In this document: piece after piece, positions 3,311-59,893 of the stretch | How the letters are laid out: every line of letters starts with the position of its first letter | Numbering within the stretch: the stretch's first letter is position 1 | Source: Chrysoperla carnea | Lineage: Eukaryota > Arthropoda > Insecta > Neuroptera > Chrysopidae | Assembly (NCBI RefSeq): GCF_905475395.1 | Contig: NC_058342.1 | Location: 27,438,640 to 27,502,639, forward strand | Direction: 5' to 3' | Length of the DNA: 64,000 bases | The notes under the pieces: model-generated | Databases searched by the model: none | What the model was told of the DNA's origin: nothing | Seen by the model: the letters and a program-made list of their open reading frames with translations, nothing else | Made by a program: the position numbers and the translations under genes

Positions 3311-3796
3311 CTAGAGTGATACCCACCCGCTTCGCTGAGTTTAAATTTAAAAGTAAAGATTGATAAAGATTGCTCTCGCTTATCCCCTTTCTATAACACT
3401 CGAAATAATGGTAAGGATTGTTTTACACAGGTAAAATATATGTATGGTTTTCTATTTTTTTAAATGTATAATAGTAATTAATGAAGGAGTATATCAGAGA
3501 AGATGGCCGTGAAATATTTTATATTGACTATTTTTACAGAAATCTATAATTAATGGTAATGTCAAATGACTACTTCTACAAAAATCTGTAATTGTAATAT
3601 GATAATGTCAAATGAAATTAATATTTAAATATTTTTTTTATTAATATATCTTTAAAAATTATATCTCATGTGTTATTCTGAAGTATGAGCTATATTGCTG
3701 TACAGTTTCATTAAAAACCATTCGCTAGTTTTAGCATAAAAGCGTCACAAACAAACAAACAAAAATGCTTACTTTCGCATTTATAATATATAGAGA
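3311..3796 (-). mobile_element. non-autonomous Helitron, copy 1
   Basis: Read on the minus strand it starts TCTCTATATATTATAAATGC, runs through 'ctaaaactagcgaatgg', and ends GGGTATCACTCTAG, giving the TC...CTAG ends of Helitrons. The flanks are A before TC and T after CTAG, the A|T insertion site of the family. A short GC-rich hairpin (CCCAGCGAAGCGGG type, here with one change) lies about a dozen bases before the CTAG end. No Rep/helicase frame is present, so mobility would depend on a helper element. Confidence 0.85.
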
Positions 3797-4369: not shown

Positions 4370-4659
4370 CTTGGTATCAATATTCAAAATTTTACTACTG
4401 TATCAAATCCTCATAAACGAAAAGTTTTAATAATATAAAATAATTTCTCAAGCGTTCTTAATGTCAATTCTGATAAATCGGTAACAAAATTATGATCATT
4501 TCAAAAATTTTTAAATTTTATATTACACTGCTTGACACAAAATCGGTCATGGTTGCAATAATGATAAAAATTATTGTTGGGACAAAGAAAATGCCTGAAT
4601 ATACTTAAAGACGTTCTCAAAAAAATAAGTGTGAAAATTCAGAAAATTAGACTATAATT

Positions 4660-5216
4660 ATACCATGCATACATGTAATATGGAAGGTATAGTAAGTTTA
4701 GTCCCAAGTTTGTAACGCTTAAAAATATTGATGCTACGCACAAAATTTTGGTATAGGTGTCCATAAAATCACCTAATTAGTTCATTTCCAGTTGTCCGTC
4801 CGTCCGTCTGTGAACACGATTACTCAAAAACAAAAAAATATATCAAGCTGAAATTTTTTCAGTCGGACTTAGGACCTAAAAAGTGAGATCGAGTTCGTAA
4901 ATGAGCAATATAGGTCAATTGGGTCTTGAGTCCGTAGAACTCATCTTGTAAACCGTTAGAGATAGAACAAAAGTTTAAATGTAAAAAATGTTCCTTATAA
5001 AAAAATAAACAACTTTTGTTCAGAACATTTTTTTGTAAACATCACTGTTTACCCACGAGGGCGCTGATTATGTGCAAATTAAATAGTATGTATTATATGG
5101 GAATATCAGTTATGTATGTGTGACATGTATGAATGTGTAATGTGATAGAGTAATCAACACTGTCCATACATGGTATTTCAACAATTAACTCAGTCAATTG
5201 TTTGTTTTCACTTGTT
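4660..5216 (-). repeat. repeat A, near full-length copy
   Basis: On the minus strand it runs from AAGTGAAAACAAACAATTG (near 5211) to the 'ggtataattatag' end (near 4660). Internal landmarks are the 'gcgctcacgggtaaaca' type block, the 'ctatctctaacggtttac' block, a GTCTGTCC-rich stretch and 'gcgttacaaacttgggacta'. Compared with other copies it is intact with point changes. There is no coding frame. Confidence 0.8.
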
Positions 5217-5239
5217 AAGAGTATAATTTTTTAAAAAAT

Positions 5240-6615: not shown

Positions 6616-7530
6616 CGCTAACTATCAATTATAAGCTTAATTTCGGGACCAGGACTCCACATTCTTGAAACCTATTATAGCTTGGTTAATTTTGTCGACA
6701 AATTTGAAAAGTATAGTCTAAATTTAGTAAGATTACATACTTGATTTATCAAAATTGGATAAAATTTGGATGCGATAGAACAAAATTAAATTTTTTTCAT
6801 TCTGATGACATCATCAAGTTAAAAAATTCAATTTTTTTGTTAACACAGGCAAATTTCTTTCGATCTTATTGGAATTTTTTTTGAAATCCACTAATATTGG
6901 GTCATTCTTTTCAGCTGTGATGTCAGTTTTTCGCTAGCTATCAGTTATGTGCTTAATTCCGGGACCAGGACTGCATATACTTGAAATCTATTATAGCTTG
7001 GTTAATTTTGACCACAAATTTGAAAAGTGTGGCCCAAATTTAGTAGGATTACATACTTCATTTACCAAAATTGGATAAAATTTGAAAGTAATAGAACAAA
7101 ATTAAATTTTTTGGTTTTTGATGACGTCATAAAGTTAAAAAATTCAATTTTTTTGTTAACACAGGCAAATTTCTTCCGATCTTATTGGAATTTTTCTTGA
7201 AATCCACTAATATTGGGTCATTCTTTTCAACTGTGATGTCAGTTTTTCGCTATCTATCAGTTATGTGCTGAATTCCGGGACCAGGACTCCATATACTTGA
7301 AATCCATTATAGCTTGGTTAATTTTGACCACAAATTTGAAAAGTATGGCCCAAATTTAGTAGGATTACATACTTGGTTTATCAAAATTGGATAAAATTTA
7401 GATGAGATAGAGCAAAATTAAATTTTTGGAATTCTGATGTGAGTTAAAAAATTCGATTATTTTAGGCAAATTTCATCCGATTCAATCTTTTTGGAGTTTT
7501 CACATTCTCCACATTCTTGAAACCTATTAG
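6616..7530 (+). repeat. 316-bp tandem satellite, three units
   Basis: The word GGGACCAGGACT occurs at 6645, 6961 and 7277, exactly 316 bases apart each time, and flanking sequence is highly similar between units. Each unit holds a TGATGACGTCAT-type block and 'ccactaatattgggtcattc'. The third unit is internally deleted and rejoins at 'ccacattcttgaaacctatt' (7507-7527). The same satellite recurs at 47862-48385. Confidence 0.9.
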
Positions 7531-24475: not shown

Positions 24476-24510
24476 AAAAACAATATGTCATAGAAATAAA
24501 TTTGTCTGTA

Positions 24511-25797
24511 GTTTATTTGGCGATTGGCCCAGTAATTTTCGAAAAAAACGATATTTCGGATCGATTTCCGGTATTATCTCGAGAATTATTAGCCCAATCG
24601 TTAAATGAAACCGATTTTTGTATTTTTTGGGTCAAAATTACCTTATATACAGAGTTTTATCGAAATTGGAGACGATAAATTTGTATCGATTTTTTGCAAT
24701 TTTTTCAAGGGGTACCCCTTAGAAAAATTCGAAAAAATCGTAAAAAATTATTTGTTTCGGAATTTGATGAAACTCAGTTTATAAGGTAATTTTGACCCAA
24801 GAAATTCAAAAATCGAGTTTATTTGGCGATTGGCCCAGTAATTTTTGAAAAAAACGATATTTCGGATCGATTTCCGGTACTATCTCGAGAATTATTAGCC
24901 CAATCGTTAAATGAAACCGATTTTTGTATTTTTTGGGTCAAAATTACCTTATATACAGAGTTTTATCGAAATTGGAGACGATAAATTTGTATCGATTTTT
25001 TGCAATTTTTTCAAGGGGTACCCCTTAGAAAAATTCGAAAAAATCGTAAAAAATTATTTGTTTCGGAATTTGATGAAACTCAGTTTATAAGGTAATTTTG
25101 ACCCAAGAAATTCAAAAATCGAGTTTATTTGGCGATTGGCCCAGTAATTTTCGAAAAAAACGATATTTCGGATCGATTTCCGGTACTATCTCGAGAATTA
25201 TTAGCCCAATCGTTAAATGAAACCGATTTTTGTATTTTTTGGGTCAAAATTACCTTATATACAGAGTTTTATCGAAATTGGAGACGATAAATTTGTATCG
25301 ATTTTTTGCAATTTTTTCAAGGGGTACCCCTTAGAAAAATTCGAAAAAATCGTAAAAAATTATTTGTTTCGGAATTTGATGAAACTCAGTTTATAAGGTA
25401 ATTTTGACCCAAGAAATTCAAAAATCGAGTTTATTTGGCGATTGGCCCAGTAATTTTTGAAAAAAACGATATTTCGGATCGATTTCCGGTATTATCTCGA
25501 GAATTATTAGCCCAATCGTTAAATGAAACCGATTTTTGTATTTTTTGGGTCAAAATTACCTTATATACAGAGTTTTATCGAAATTGGAGACGATAAATTT
25601 GTATCGATTTTTTGCAATTTTTTCAAGGGGTACCCCTTAGAAAAATTCGAAAAAATCGTAAAAAATTATTTGTTTCGGAATTTGATGAAACTCAGTTTAT
25701 AAGGTAATTTTGACCCAAGAAATTCAAAAATCGAGTTTATTTGGCGATTGGCCGAGTAATTTTCGAAAAAAACGATATTTCGGATCGATTTCCGATT
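24511..25797 (+). repeat. 306-bp satellite, 4.2 tandem units
   Basis: GTTTATTTGGCGATTGG occurs at 24511, 24817, 25123, 25429 and 25735, exactly 306 bases apart. Units differ at only a few positions (e.g. TATTATCTC or TACTATCTC; ATTTTCG or ATTTTTG), so they are young or homogenised. Each unit is a 214-bp imperfect palindrome centred on AAGGGGTACCCCTT (first unit 24607-24820, centre 24713/24714) plus a 92-bp segment (e.g. 24821-24912) whose ends are also inverted repeats. The fifth unit stops after 63 bases and joins a repeat A 3' fragment. Confidence 0.95.
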
Positions 25798-25885
25798 GAT
25801 TTACCTATACCAAAATTTGTTTCGTAGCATCAGTATTTTTAAGCGTTATAAACTTGGGACTAAACTTAATATAAATATATTTATA
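25798..25885 (+). repeat. repeat A fragment (3' end)
   Basis: 'acctataccaaaatttgttt', then 'gcgttataaacttgggacta', abutting the satellite end. It is the 3' third of repeat A. Confidence 0.75.
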
Positions 25886-26270: not shown

Positions 26271-26450
26271 AAGTAGTTCGGCCGTCAAGTGACTAGTCAA
26301 GTTATCAACTAATTTATATTCATTGAATTTTAATCTAAATTATGAATAAAAATAATATTTGTATCACGTAAATGTTTTTTAATGCTTTGAAAATATCGTA
26401 AAAGATAAAATTTATATGTCAATTTGACTAGTTTTTGACGTTTAAACGTC
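26271..26450 (+). repeat. dispersed repeat L, copy 1
   Basis: It is close to 53178-53345 (+) and 46332-46508 (-). The common core includes 'actaatttatattcattgaa' and 'tttgtatcacgtaaatgttt'. It starts GTAGTTCGGCCGTCA, a GC-richer end that is shared by all copies. There is no coding frame. Confidence 0.7.
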
Positions 26451-26764
26451 AAAAACCAAAGTTTTTTTATATTTTCTTTTTGGAAAGCGTCGTAAGGTTT
26501 TTAAAAAATGGTTTATTAAAACATATGAGAAAACTGGATTTAGGAAAAAATAGACCGAAAAAAATTTTGTAATAGTGTCCCATTTTTGAATGACAAAGCT
26601 AAAAACGTCAGAAGCCAACCAACTCCTTTATAGTTGACAAACTCAACCTTACTAACTCGTAATTACAACAATATTCCGGGTCTATAAAATTTTCGGTTTG
26701 TTTTTTCCGATTTCCGAGAAAACTATATCACTATATGAATTATAATTTAGAATTATTGTTTTAA
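26451..26764. other. intergenic, nothing recognised
   Basis: 'tatattttctttttggaaag' near 26470 resembles the window's last bases (63961-63980). No gene is seen. Confidence 0.4.
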
Positions 26765-32948: not shown

Positions 32949-33418
32949 CTAGAGTGATACCCACCTGCTTCGCTGGGTTTAAAAGTAAAGATTGATAAAG
33001 ATTGCTCTCGCTTATCCCCTTTCTATAACACTCGAAATAATGGTAAGGATTGTTTTACCCAGCTAAAATATATGTATGATTTTCTATTTTTTTAAATGTA
33101 TAATAGTCGAAATTATTTGTTGAGTATATCAGAAAAGATGGCCCTGAAATATTTTATATTGACTATTTTTACAGAAATCTGCAATTTCTGGTAATGACAA
33201 ATGACTACTTTTACAGAAATCTGTAATTTATGGTAATGTCAAATTAAATTAATTTTAAAATTTTTTTTGATTTTTTATTTTTATTACTATATCTTTATAA
33301 ATTATATCTCATGTGTTATTCTGAAGTATGACCAGTTTCATTTAAAACCGTTCGCTAGTTTAAGCGTGAAAGCGTAACAAACAAACATGCTTACTTTCGC
33401 ATTTATAATATATAGAGA
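32949..33418 (-). mobile_element. non-autonomous Helitron, copy 3
   Basis: Minus-strand ends are TCTCTATATATTATAAATGC and GGGTATCACTCTAG with A and T flanks. The hairpin is CCCAGCGAAGCAGG. It faces copy 2 across 250 bases, so the pair could form a long hairpin. Confidence 0.85.
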
Positions 33419-33562: not shown

Positions 33563-33634
33563 TGCCTCCTGTGAGAATCGAACTCACGACCCCTGGTTTA
33601 CAAGACCAGTGCTCTGCCTCTGAGCTAAGGAGGC
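33563..33634 (-). tRNA. tRNA-Thr (TGT), copy 1
   Basis: A 72-base cloverleaf with acceptor strands GCCTCCT and AGGAGGC perfectly paired and A as discriminator. The A box is TAGCTCAGAGGC. The anticodon arm CTGGT-CTTGTAA-ACCAG gives TGT. The T arm carries GAGTTCGATTC. No intron. Of the four copies this has the best acceptor stem. A strong T run does not follow at once ('tgtgaacaatctataatttt' on the minus strand). Confidence 0.95.
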
Positions 33635-35697: not shown

Positions 35698-35769
35698 GCC
35701 TGCTTAGCTCAGAGGCAGAGCACTGGTCTTGTAAACCAGGGGTCGTGAGTTCGATTCTCACAGGGGGCA
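35698..35769 (+). tRNA. tRNA-Thr (TGT), copy 2
   Basis: Same A box, anticodon arm and T arm as copy 1. The acceptor GCCTGCT/AGGGGGC has one G-G mismatch (position 5) and one T-G wobble, weaker than the other copies. A T run follows at 35771-35777, a good Pol III terminator. Probably functional but possibly drifting. Confidence 0.9.
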
Positions 35770-36099: not shown

Positions 36100-36171
36100 G
36101 CCTCCTTAGCTCAGAGGCAGAGCACTGGTCTTGTAAACCAGGGGTCGTGAGTTCGATTCTCACAGGGGGCA
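36100..36171 (+). tRNA. tRNA-Thr (TGT), copy 3
   Basis: The acceptor GCCTCCT/AGGGGGC pairs fully with one T-G wobble. The remainder is identical to copy 2, and both are preceded by 'CAAC'. The nearest T run downstream is TGTTTT near 36190. Copies 2 and 3 are in tandem with 330 bases between them. Confidence 0.95.
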
Positions 36172-37067: not shown

Positions 37068-37590
37068 AACAAGTGAAAACAAACAATTGACTGAGTTAAT
37101 TGTTGAAATACCATGTATGGACAGTGTTGGTTACTCTATCACATTACACATACATATATAACTGATATACACATATAAATAATACGTACTATTTAATTTA
37201 CGCTCACACGGGTTAACAGTGATGTTTATGAAAAAATGTTTCAAACAAAAGTTGTTATTTTTTTATAAGGAACATTTTTTAAACTTTTGTTCTATCTCTT
37301 ACGGTTTACAAGATGGGTCCTCGTTGCTCATTTACAAATTCGACCTCACTTTTTACGTCCTAAGCACGCTATAAAAATTTCAGCTTGATATCTTTTTTAG
37401 TTTTTGAGTAATCGTGATGACAGATGGACAGACAGACGACAGACAGACAGACAACCGAAAATGGACTAATTAGGTGATTTCATGCACTCCTATACCAAAA
37501 TTTTGTTCATAGTATCAATATTTTTAAGCGTTACAAACTTGGGACTAAACTTAGTATACCTTGGTATATTTCATATACATGGTATAAAAA
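37068..37590 (+). repeat. repeat A, full-length reference copy
   Basis: It starts AACAAGTGAAAACAAACAAT. The 5' hairpin is AACAATT-GACTGAGTT-AATTGTT. Then come the 'cacacgggttaacagtgatg' block, 'ctatctcttacggtttacaa', the (GACA)n/(GTCT)n-rich stretch near 37420-37460, 'taattaggtgatttcatgca', and 'gcgttacaaacttgggacta'. The 3' hairpin pairs ATACCTTGGTATATTTCATA with its complement and the element ends GGTATAAAAA. No Pol III boxes, LTR or coding frame is visible. The family class is unknown to me. Confidence 0.85.
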
Positions 37591-39247: not shown

Positions 39248-39717
39248 TCTCTATATATTATAAATGCGAAAGTAAGCATGTTTGTTTGTTTGTTACGCTT
39301 TCACGCTAAAACTAGTGAATGTTTTTTAATGAAACTGTACAGCAATATAGCTCATTATCAGAATAACACATGAGATATAATTTTTAAAGATATATTAATA
39401 AAAAATTTAAAAATTAATTTAATTTGACATTACCGTAAATTACAGATTTCTGTAAAAGTAGTCATTTGACATTACCAGAAATTACAGATTTCTGCAAAAA
39501 TAGTCAATATAAAATAATTCACGACTATCTTTTCTGATGTACTCAATGAATAATTAAGGCTATTATACATTTTAAAAAAAATAAAACCATACATATATTT
39601 TACCTGTGTAAAACAATCCTTACCATTTTTTCGAGTGTTAAAGAAAGGGGATAAGCGAGAGCAATTTTTATCAATCTTTACTTTTAAACCCAGCGAAGCG
39701 GGTGGGTATCACTCTAG
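39248..39717 (+). mobile_element. non-autonomous Helitron, copy 4
   Basis: A|TCTCTATATATTATAAATGC at the start and GGGTATCACTCTAG|T at the end. The hairpin CCCAGCGAAGCGGG lies just before the 3' end. It is well preserved and similar to copies 1 and 3. No helicase frame. Confidence 0.9.
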
Positions 39718-39956: not shown

Positions 39957-40031
39957 AAAAATAATGATATGGGTGGCCTCTGTTATAGCAAGATAACTTA
40001 AAAACGGAGGTGAAACCCCATTATTATTATT
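39957..40031 (+). mobile_element. SINE 3' fragment (tRNA-Leu-like family)
   Basis: 'ataatgatatgggtggcctc', then 'aaacggaggtgaaacccc' and (ATT)n. This is the last 75 bases of the SINE at 13319-13613. Repeat A begins directly after the tail. Confidence 0.8.
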
Positions 40032-40032
40032 A

Positions 40033-40590
40033 TACCATGTATATATGAAATATATCAAGGTATACTAAGTTTAGTCCCAAGTTTGTAACGCTTAAAAATA
40101 TTAATACTATGAACAAAATTTTGGTACAGTTGTTCATAAAATCACCTAATTAGTCCGTTTCCGGTTGTCTATCTGTCTGTCTGTCGTCTGTCCGTCTGCC
40201 ATCACGATTACTCAAAAACGAAAAAAGATATCAAGCTGAAATTTTTATAGCGTGCTGAGGACGTAAAAAGTGAGGTCAAGTTCGTAAGTGAGCAACATAG
40301 GTCAATTGGGTCTTGGGTTCGTAGGACCCATCTTGTAAACCGTTAGAGATAGAACATAAGTTTAAATATAAAAAATGTTCCTTATAAAATAAACAACTTT
40401 TGTTTGAAACATTTTTTCATAAACATCCTTGTTTACCCGTGAGAGCGCAAATTGTATAGTAAGTATGTTATGGCTATACCAATTATATATGTGTGACATG
40501 TATGTATGTGTTATGTGATAAAGAAATCAACACTGTCTATAAATGGAATTTCAACAATTAACTCAGTCAATTGTTTGTTTTCATTTGTCT
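40033..40590 (-). repeat. repeat A, full-length copy
   Basis: From 'taccatgtatatatgaaata' to 'caattgtttgttttcatttg'. All landmarks of the 37068 copy are present in inverse order, with a long GTCTGTC stretch at 40170-40197. Confidence 0.85.
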
Positions 40591-46331: not shown

Positions 46332-46508
46332 AGACGTTTAAACAAAAACCAGTCGAAATTGACGTAAAAATTTTATGTTTTACGATATTTTTAAAGCTAA
46401 AAAACATTTACGTGATACAAATATTATTTTTATTCATAGCTTCGATTTAAATTCAATGAATATAAATTAGTTGCTAACTTGACTAGTCATGTGATGGCCG
46501 AACTACTT
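46332..46508 (-). repeat. dispersed repeat L, copy 2
   Basis: Reverse complement of 26271-26450 and 53178-53345. It ends 'gtgatggccgaactac'. Confidence 0.7.
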
Positions 46509-46528
46509 TGTCACTTACCATGATATAA

Positions 46529-52705: not shown

Positions 52706-53177
52706 TGTTCCAATCATTAGGAAATTGTTTGAAAGTATTTTTACTTTATTTCAATATGAAACGACTAACTTCAGGATGAGGTCGTTATTATTTTAAATTT
52801 TTTTTTCAGTGTACTTTTGCCTGTTTTTCTCAGTTAAGAGTACTTTTGACCGGCTAAGAGTTTTGATTGTGACACAAATAATATATGGTATATTAAAAAA
52901 GAAAATGTTTAACGATTATAAAAGAACATTGCGGCGCGGCGTCTCATGGCCATAAACACATAACGCAACCGTGTAAGCAAACAACATTTCATATATACAA
53001 ACTTGTTGATTTTTTCGAAATGAGTATTTATTTTTTGATTTAAAATAAACAGAAATTAAAATAAAAATATATAAACAAAAAAATGTATTTCATAATACAT
53101 ATATTAAGCTGAAAGAAGTGAGTATTGAGTATAATGTAAGCGGTAGCACGTCAATTGGGCAATTGTAAGGAGACGAA
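52706..53177. other. intergenic, nothing recognised
   Basis: 52720-52830 resembles about 900-1080. The rest is AT-rich without a feature. Confidence 0.4.
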
Positions 53178-53345
53178 AAGTAGTCCGACCGTCACATGAC
53201 TAGTCAAGTTAGCAACTAATTTATATTCATTGAATTTAAATCAAAGTTATCTATAAAAATAATATTTGTATCACGTAAATGTTTTTTAATGCTTTAAAAA
53301 TATCGTAAAAGATTAAATTTATACGTCAAGTTGACTAGTTTTCTT
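53178..53345 (+). repeat. dispersed repeat L, copy 3
   Basis: GTAGTCCGACCGTCACATGA start, then the shared core. It is very similar to 26271-26450. Confidence 0.7.
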
Positions 53346-59821: not shown

Positions 59822-59893
59822 TGCCCCCTGTGAGAATCGAACTCACGACCCCTGGTTTACAAGACCAGTGCTCTGCCTCTGAGCTAAGGAGGC
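59822..59893 (-). tRNA. tRNA-Thr (TGT), copy 4
   Basis: Acceptor GCCTCCT/AGGGGGC with one wobble. Anticodon arm CTGGT-CTTGTAA-ACCAG and T arm GAGTTCGATTC are identical to the other copies, and A is the discriminator. The minus strand continues GGGGGCATTTTTTT, so a T run follows at once, a good Pol III terminator. It lies about 24 kb from the 33-36 kb group. Confidence 0.95.

Follow-up and report, generated by a model that had tools for sequence, protein, structure and literature searches.

The repeat array and its surroundings

The window, that is, the whole stretch of 64,000 nucleotides that was analysed (C6:27,438,640-27,502,639 of a genome of 559 Mb in 337 contigs), contains a tandem array that Tandem Repeats Finder places at 24510-25794 with a period of 306 bp, 4.2 copies and 99% matches. 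This confirms the near-identical tandem 306-bp units reported in the initial annotation of this DNA; the limits given there, 24511..25797, point to the right place but begin 1 bp and end 3 bp away from those found here. The features on which the following description relies are listed below, X and X' being two segments of the unit that are defined in the next section.

4653..5217, + strand (Helentron orientation): satellite-free relative of about 557 bp with the same two ends (end alignment)
24490..24509, no strand: left breakpoint region, where unrelated sequence abuts unit position 1 and there is no Helentron 3' end (flank comparison)
24510..25794, - strand: array of 4.2 x 306 bp, very probably the central repeats of a non-autonomous Helentron (HINE) (repeat call, and arrays of the same unit enclosed by element ends at other genomic sites)
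24571..24713, + strand: one X' segment (unit positions 62-204, 143 bp), inverted relative to X and 78% similar to it
24714..24876, + strand: one X segment (unit positions 205-306 plus 1-61, 163 bp), which stands at both the start and the finish of complete arrays
25795..25873, - strand: inner part of the conserved right tail, on the Helentron 5' side, with the terminal hairpin and the 5' subTIR missing (25798-25873 is 96% identical to the tail of copy L025)
37068..37590, - strand (Helentron orientation): satellite-free relative of about 518 bp with the same two ends (end alignment)
40023..40588, + strand (Helentron orientation): satellite-free relative of about 558 bp with the same two ends (end alignment)

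The Helentron 5'->3' direction corresponds to the minus strand of the window. The array comprises four full units and a 61-bp fifth part-unit, and only unit positions 21, 31 and 65 vary among them. Position 31 is C in units 1 and 3 and T in units 2 and 4, position 65 is T in units 1 and 4 and C in units 2 and 3, and all four of the four possible combinations of states are present, so the shuffling of diagnostic sites between units that had been noticed earlier is real. These combinations are as expected from exchange between units and could also come from recurrent change at two C/T sites. Signs of the exchange proposed in the initial annotation are also found in the genome at large: four-gamete pairs occur in 6 of the 15 arrays with at least four full units, most of them in the longest array, L021 (54 of 136 pairs). 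All four full units in the window carry C at position 21 and A at position 82, neither of which appears in the other 20 arrays sampled, and the trailing part-unit keeps the common state at position 21, which suggests that a variant unit was amplified locally.

The copy in the window is a dead fragment without the 3' end and the terminal 5' part; its right tail covers positions 1-76 only of the right-tail query. Since it has neither subTIR, it is not expected to move, and, since it has neither terminus, its assignment to the HINEs rests on its relatives. Eight satellite-free relatives, each with one or both ends, were aligned in the window, and a 39-mer of this sister group occurs 988 times in the genome. 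A derivation of X from these relatives was rejected, as only 10-17-bp matches to X were found there.

Several other repeats lie in the same window. A second tandem array, at 6616-7439, has a period of 316 bp, 2.6 copies and 90% matches; its kinship with the 306-bp unit was considered and dropped, because the two share no more than weak AT-rich matches, the best of them with E 2e-4 over 48 bp. At 3525-3615, 33160-33244 and 39422-39506, a 42-bp repeat recurs in similar form, each time in about two tandem copies; it probably belongs to another dispersed element. At 26431-26456, GTTTTTGACGTTT/AAACGTCAAAAAC forms a perfect palindrome of 26 bp that overlaps a repeat with two other copies in the window (46333-46509 and 53177-53342). 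Four tRNA-Thr (TGT) genes or tRNA-like copies are present within 26 kb (33563-33634, 35698-35769, 36100-36171 and 59822-59893), each inside a stretch that is repeated in the window. The Rfam search of the window at gathering scores returned six tRNA matches and no other, and a Pfam search of 10 of the 40 listed open stretches returned no match.

Inverted segments alternate in the 306-bp unit

The centre of dyad symmetry falls between unit positions 204 and 205 (AAGGGGT/ACCCCTT), and in a consensus built from 117 units the two 107-bp arms are 78.5% complementary in an ungapped alignment, so that the 214-bp imperfect palindrome described earlier from the window is a genuine feature of the repeat. 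The similarity of the arms is far above chance: the circular consensus unit is 73.2% self-complementary, whereas 1000 dinucleotide shuffles average 39.8% and do not exceed 47.1%. Of the two symmetry axes per unit that the initial annotation had claimed, the first is thus strong, but the second is weak: complementarity reaches 61% in the outer 46 bp of each arm and drops to 15% in the 13 bp nearest the axis. The unit is better described as two alternating segments, namely, X of 163 bp and the inverted X' of 143 bp, which are about 78% alike. The potential to form hairpins that had been suggested is borne out by the predicted folds of a 214-nt stretch of the window, at -59 kcal/mol for DNA (z -11.8) and -100.6 kcal/mol for RNA (z -15.5).

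Arrays are enclosed by constant ends

A genome search with one unit produced at least 494 matches (40 scored of 537 candidates), and 20 of the 39 other array places among the matches listed were fetched. A left flank of about 265 bp, whole or partial, adjoins the array in 12 of these 20, with the joint at the dyad centre or beside it; it is nearly complete in nine (including L025, the query), inner-gapped in two (L015 and L024) and represented by its inner 43 bp only in one (L020). The array match starts exactly at unit position 205, the dyad centre, in 9 of the 20, and a right tail of about 107 bp, partial in three cases, directly follows the array in 17 of the 20. Apart from short repeat matches, the sequence beyond the left end is not common to L025 and the other copies, and this difference in the outside DNA implies separate insertions.

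Pattern searches of the genome found 88 exact left junctions and 84 exact right ends, with no match for the reversed-pattern control of either. Both exact junctions were listed for 18 elements, and in 17 of these the length from junction to junction comes to within 0.1 of a whole number of units (n = 0, 1, 2, 5, 6, 8 or 9), the remaining one, on C2, being of half-unit length (0.48). Whole-unit lengths between fixed junctions indicate that complete elements have the form left end - (X X')nX - right end. One copy with n = 0, L033, from which the outer 80 bp of the left end are gone and in which there is an extra run of A, represents either the ancestral state or a contraction. The longest of the 20 fetched arrays contains 18 units.

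Many copies are incomplete. With the window included, the left (Helentron 3') terminus is absent in 9 of 21 copies, versus 4 of 21 in which no right (Helentron 5') terminus directly follows the array (one of these, L015, has a partial tail 1.1 kb further on); some copies are cut on the right instead of the left. The truncated copy L011 and the window copy start at the identical unit position, and the other starts are scattered over the unit.

These truncations bear on the possibility, which we regard as improbable, that the dyads themselves are functional, either as a source of long double-stranded RNA that would feed small-RNA silencing or as hairpins that would act in rolling-circle replication, for example, as early terminators. 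The very strong predicted folds, the more frequent loss of the 3' terminus and the starting position shared by L011 and the window are compatible with such a role, but the scattered starts of the other truncated copies count against it. The variation among units likewise speaks mostly against it. There is not a single compensatory pair change in the 117 units, and variants that restore pairing at mismatched positions are at expectation (19 of 45 versus 16.2), so that neither arm-to-arm conversion nor selection for pairing is supported. Paired positions are less often variable than unpaired ones (68 of 224 versus 39 of 82, p 0.007). This contrast speaks for constraint but may stem from base composition, with which it is confounded: variation is higher at G and C, and G is less often paired.

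Copy number and chromosomal distribution

The 25-base core of the dyad has 785 exact occurrences in the 559-Mb assembly, equivalent to about 240 kb or about 0.04% of the assembly as a lower bound. The exact junctions are unevenly distributed: 77 of the 88 left and 71 of the 84 right junctions are located on C3 above 66.4 Mb or on C4 below 24 Mb, two blocks that together make up 51.7 of 559.5 Mb, or 9% of the genome; the binomial probability of 2.5e-67 for the left junctions is post hoc, the blocks having been picked from the same list. As judged by the contig order of the first 100 places listed, C1, C2 and C3 below 64.7 Mb hold only 42 of the 785 cores, so the concentration is not an effect of the junction pattern alone. 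Its extent is C3:64.7-91.7 Mb and C4:0.4-23.8 Mb, and C1 has a smaller group at about 7-28 Mb. The + strand carries 32 of the 44 exact left junctions on C3.

Satellite-free sequences served as controls. None of the 19 copies of one such 80-mer is in the blocks, versus about two expected by length, and the 988-copy 39-mer is, among the first 100 matches listed, entirely on C1, spread over 3-52 Mb. Protein-kinase matches (122 of 468 candidates scored) number, among the matches listed, 6 of 142 in the C4 block, which is near the expectation for 4.3% of the genome, and 1 of 142 in the C3 block; by this measure, the C4 block is not gene-poor, whereas the C3 block may be. Tentatively, and with considerable doubt, we suggest that the (X X')nX Helentron lineage could have expanded mostly in C3 beyond about 65 Mb and in C4 below 24 Mb, with its satellite-free sisters spread elsewhere. 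If this is true, transposition would be limited by chromosome territory or sex linkage or, alternatively, blocks of different ancestry (introgression) would have brought the active lineage along.

The initial annotation had considered a centromere- or heterochromatin-type satellite and had named low genome copy number as the observation that would speak against it. The 785 exact cores fit this as far as the assembly goes, and the arrays examined are short and scattered, with the ends of a transposable element as their limits. Assemblies often collapse long arrays, so that the short arrays could, in principle, be seeds or spill-over of a genuine centromeric or pericentromeric satellite; the crowding of the exact junctions in two blocks and the slightly greater similarity of units within arrays than between arrays (1.5% versus 2.1% divergence) would agree with this. 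Nevertheless, we consider such an origin very unlikely, given the modest number of cores, the limit of 18 units among the 20 fetched arrays, the transposon sequences at which arrays end and the about expected number of kinase matches in the C4 block, even if the C3 block has few.

The termini match those of non-autonomous Helentrons

The ends of the element are well defined. The 5' terminus is a hairpin (on the minus strand of the window) that contains the 11-bp subTIR ATACCATGTAT, located 1 nt from the terminus as defined here, or 2 nt when the flanking T is counted, and the complement of ATACCATGTAT is found 39 nt from the 3' terminus; with truncated copies counted, the subTIR is exact in 15 of 21 copies at the 5' side and in 9 of 21 at the 3' side. 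A palindrome, ACAATT...AATTGT (ACAATTGACTGAGTTAATTGT), is located 14 nt from the 3' terminus; 7 of 21 copies preserve its inner 19 bases exactly, and its predicted stem is weak (-2.5 kcal/mol). A T stands directly before 29 of 32 5' ends and directly after 25 of 26 3' ends, in a count that pools satellite-bearing and satellite-free copies from the window and L009-L028 with end matches of at least 40 and at least 30 bp, respectively. Among 19 joined flank pairs that were searched for empty sites, one was informative, namely, L012, for which paralogous empty sites in L015 and L024 reveal no duplicated bases; two other matches were self-matches.

The published description of HINEs places their subTIRs, of which at least 11 bp are identical per family, at distances of about 2-4 nt (5' end) and 38-60 nt (3' end), with a palindrome about 8-35 bp from the 3' end, T-rich insertion sites that have T on both sides and no target-site duplication, and ends in common with an autonomous element that encodes Rep, helicase and endonuclease (PMC4067079, in the parts cited). 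The subTIR positions, the 3' palindrome, the T-T insertion and, in one insertion, the lack of duplication all conform to this pattern. Because the termini match those of HINE/DINE-1 elements and because oyster HINEs carry satellite-like central repeats, we assign the array to this class: judged from its sequence, it is very probably the tandem-repeat module in the middle of a non-autonomous Helentron (HINE), a rolling-circle transposon of the DINE-1 type. A canonical Helitron (5' TC, 3' CTRR, insertion between A and T) was rejected given ends of the form TATACC... and ...CTCTTGT with T on both sides, and so was a MITE with terminal inverted repeats and a target-site duplication, since the two termini differ and the one insertion with empty sites has no duplication.

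The same termini dispose of two further explanations. The dyad centre, GGGG-TA-CCCC, resembles two inverted ends around a TA, as if each unit were a terminal-inverted-repeat element plus its TA target site and the dyad centre the joint between neighbouring tandem MITEs; however, all 18 two-junction elements have the same outer ends, with an array that finishes in X and not at a TA, no solitary 304-bp element came up in searches that had other targets, and, given also the subTIRs and the lack of duplication, this reading was dropped as extremely improbable. A retroelement whose 3' region contains the array and whose copies are 5'-truncated, to which the several copies cut at varying left points with the right end intact might point, is scarcely credible and was abandoned as well, considering that 12 of 20 fetched copies have the fixed left terminus, which includes a hairpin and the subTIR (in L016, 35 bp of the terminus), that T is found on both sides, that the one insertion with empty sites lacks a target-site duplication and that some copies are cut on the right.

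Possible mode of propagation and candidate partners

The full element, in the orientation of the window, consists of a left end of about 265 bp (Helentron 3', bearing the palindrome and a subTIR), X, n copies of X'X and a right end of about 107 bp (Helentron 5', bearing a subTIR and the inverted repeat of it). Presumably, the dyad was born from a single early inverted duplication of X that was later amplified in tandem, and arrays would then lengthen or shorten in whole 306-bp steps via exchange or slippage. A Rep/helicase encoded elsewhere would nick the element, replicate it in single-stranded form and carry the array to new sites. The array is probably selfish DNA, and the lack of a host function is the most likely state for the copy in the window.

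Potential sources of the enzyme are present in the genome, with 64 matches to the Helitron-like Rep family (PF14214) and open Rep-type frames of 1462 aa. As many as 34 of the 64 matches are within C6:4.3-12.8 Mb. Open frames of 1462 aa from C5 and C6 (L038-L041) share 99.9-100% identity across 3.4-3.5 kb, and this near-identity suggests recent Helitron activity in the genome. The frames are of more than one kind: L034 and L038 have RGLPH, a Helitron rather than a Helentron signature, L044 has a mixed signature, with FWR before the motif but RGLQH, and the match on C7 is preceded upstream by an OTU protease and DUF6570. The region that contains L044, C3:3767553-3809834, includes seven Rep-family matches, of which six follow one another at a spacing of 5,813-5,815 bp, and by its sequence is a tandem array of a Helentron-like unit, the frames of which resemble the OTU/DUF6570 frame on C7.

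Ends in common with the element were found at none of eight Rep loci, in stretches of about 3.5 kb each that possibly fall short of the element ends. The two upstream stretches on C7 are 98.9% identical to each other throughout, and the one that was compared with the element ends had no match; the same holds for one tandem unit from C3. Because most of these stretches stop short of their own element ends, such negative results do not exclude a partner.

Relation to known systems

Short satellite-like arrays that are the central repeats of non-autonomous Helentrons have been described in the oyster Crassostrea gigas as Cg_HINE (PMC7492417), and, judging from the portions of the reports cited here, the element of Chrysoperla carnea shares much with them. 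Both are dispersed, mostly with few units and in a fixed orientation relative to the ends, and in both, related ends are combined with different cores (PMC7492417). The more general hallmarks of the DINE-1/HINE families, namely, the subTIRs, an inverted repeat beside the 5' subTIR, a 3' palindrome, T-T insertion without duplication and optional central repeats, are common to this element as well, the comparison being one of structure; an autonomous partner has been found for DINE-1/HINE elements (PMC4067079), whereas none was linked here in the short stretches compared.

The differences concern the unit and its distribution. The Cg_HINE consensus monomers are 138-181 bp long, and an inverted-alternating unit does not figure in the cited portions of that account (PMC7492417), whereas here a 306-bp dyad results from two monomer-sized segments of alternating orientation, and the copies cluster in certain chromosome regions. 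Changes of orientation as such are not new because oyster arrays inside Helitron/Helentron elements are said, in the cited part of a later review, to be 'oriented in different directions' (PMC12628747). Helentron units made of inverted alternating segments were not met in the parts of the literature consulted, an absence that is weak evidence, and a literature search by DNA words gave no relevant title among the matches listed. Alternating orientation makes for an odd rolling-circle substrate, since the single strand should fold into long hairpins.

Two beetle systems offer partial parallels, again as far as the cited parts of the sources go. In Tribolium castaneum, the satellite-type repeat TCsat23 similarly occurs as short arrays inside a DNA transposon, Rehavkus-1_TC, but it sits in the inverted termini of a large transposon and not, like the array described here, in a Helentron core (PMC10218199). 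The satellites of Tribolium madens also are dyad-symmetric tandem repeats able to form hairpins or cruciforms, but their macro-dyad symmetries span tens of kilobases in putative pericentromeres (PMC13081366), whereas here each 306-bp unit contains its own dyad and the short arrays are carried by transposons.

What looks, in one window, like a dyad satellite can turn out to be the core of a transposon. A single genome displays the carrier, its ends, arrays from n = 0 to 9 and satellite-free sisters, so that the growth and loss of arrays become traceable; the regional concentration, if upheld by an independent test, calls for a cause. Compared with the known systems, this is a known kind of element, very probably a HINE, in an unusual version, with repeats that alternate in orientation and with most of the copies found in two chromosome regions.
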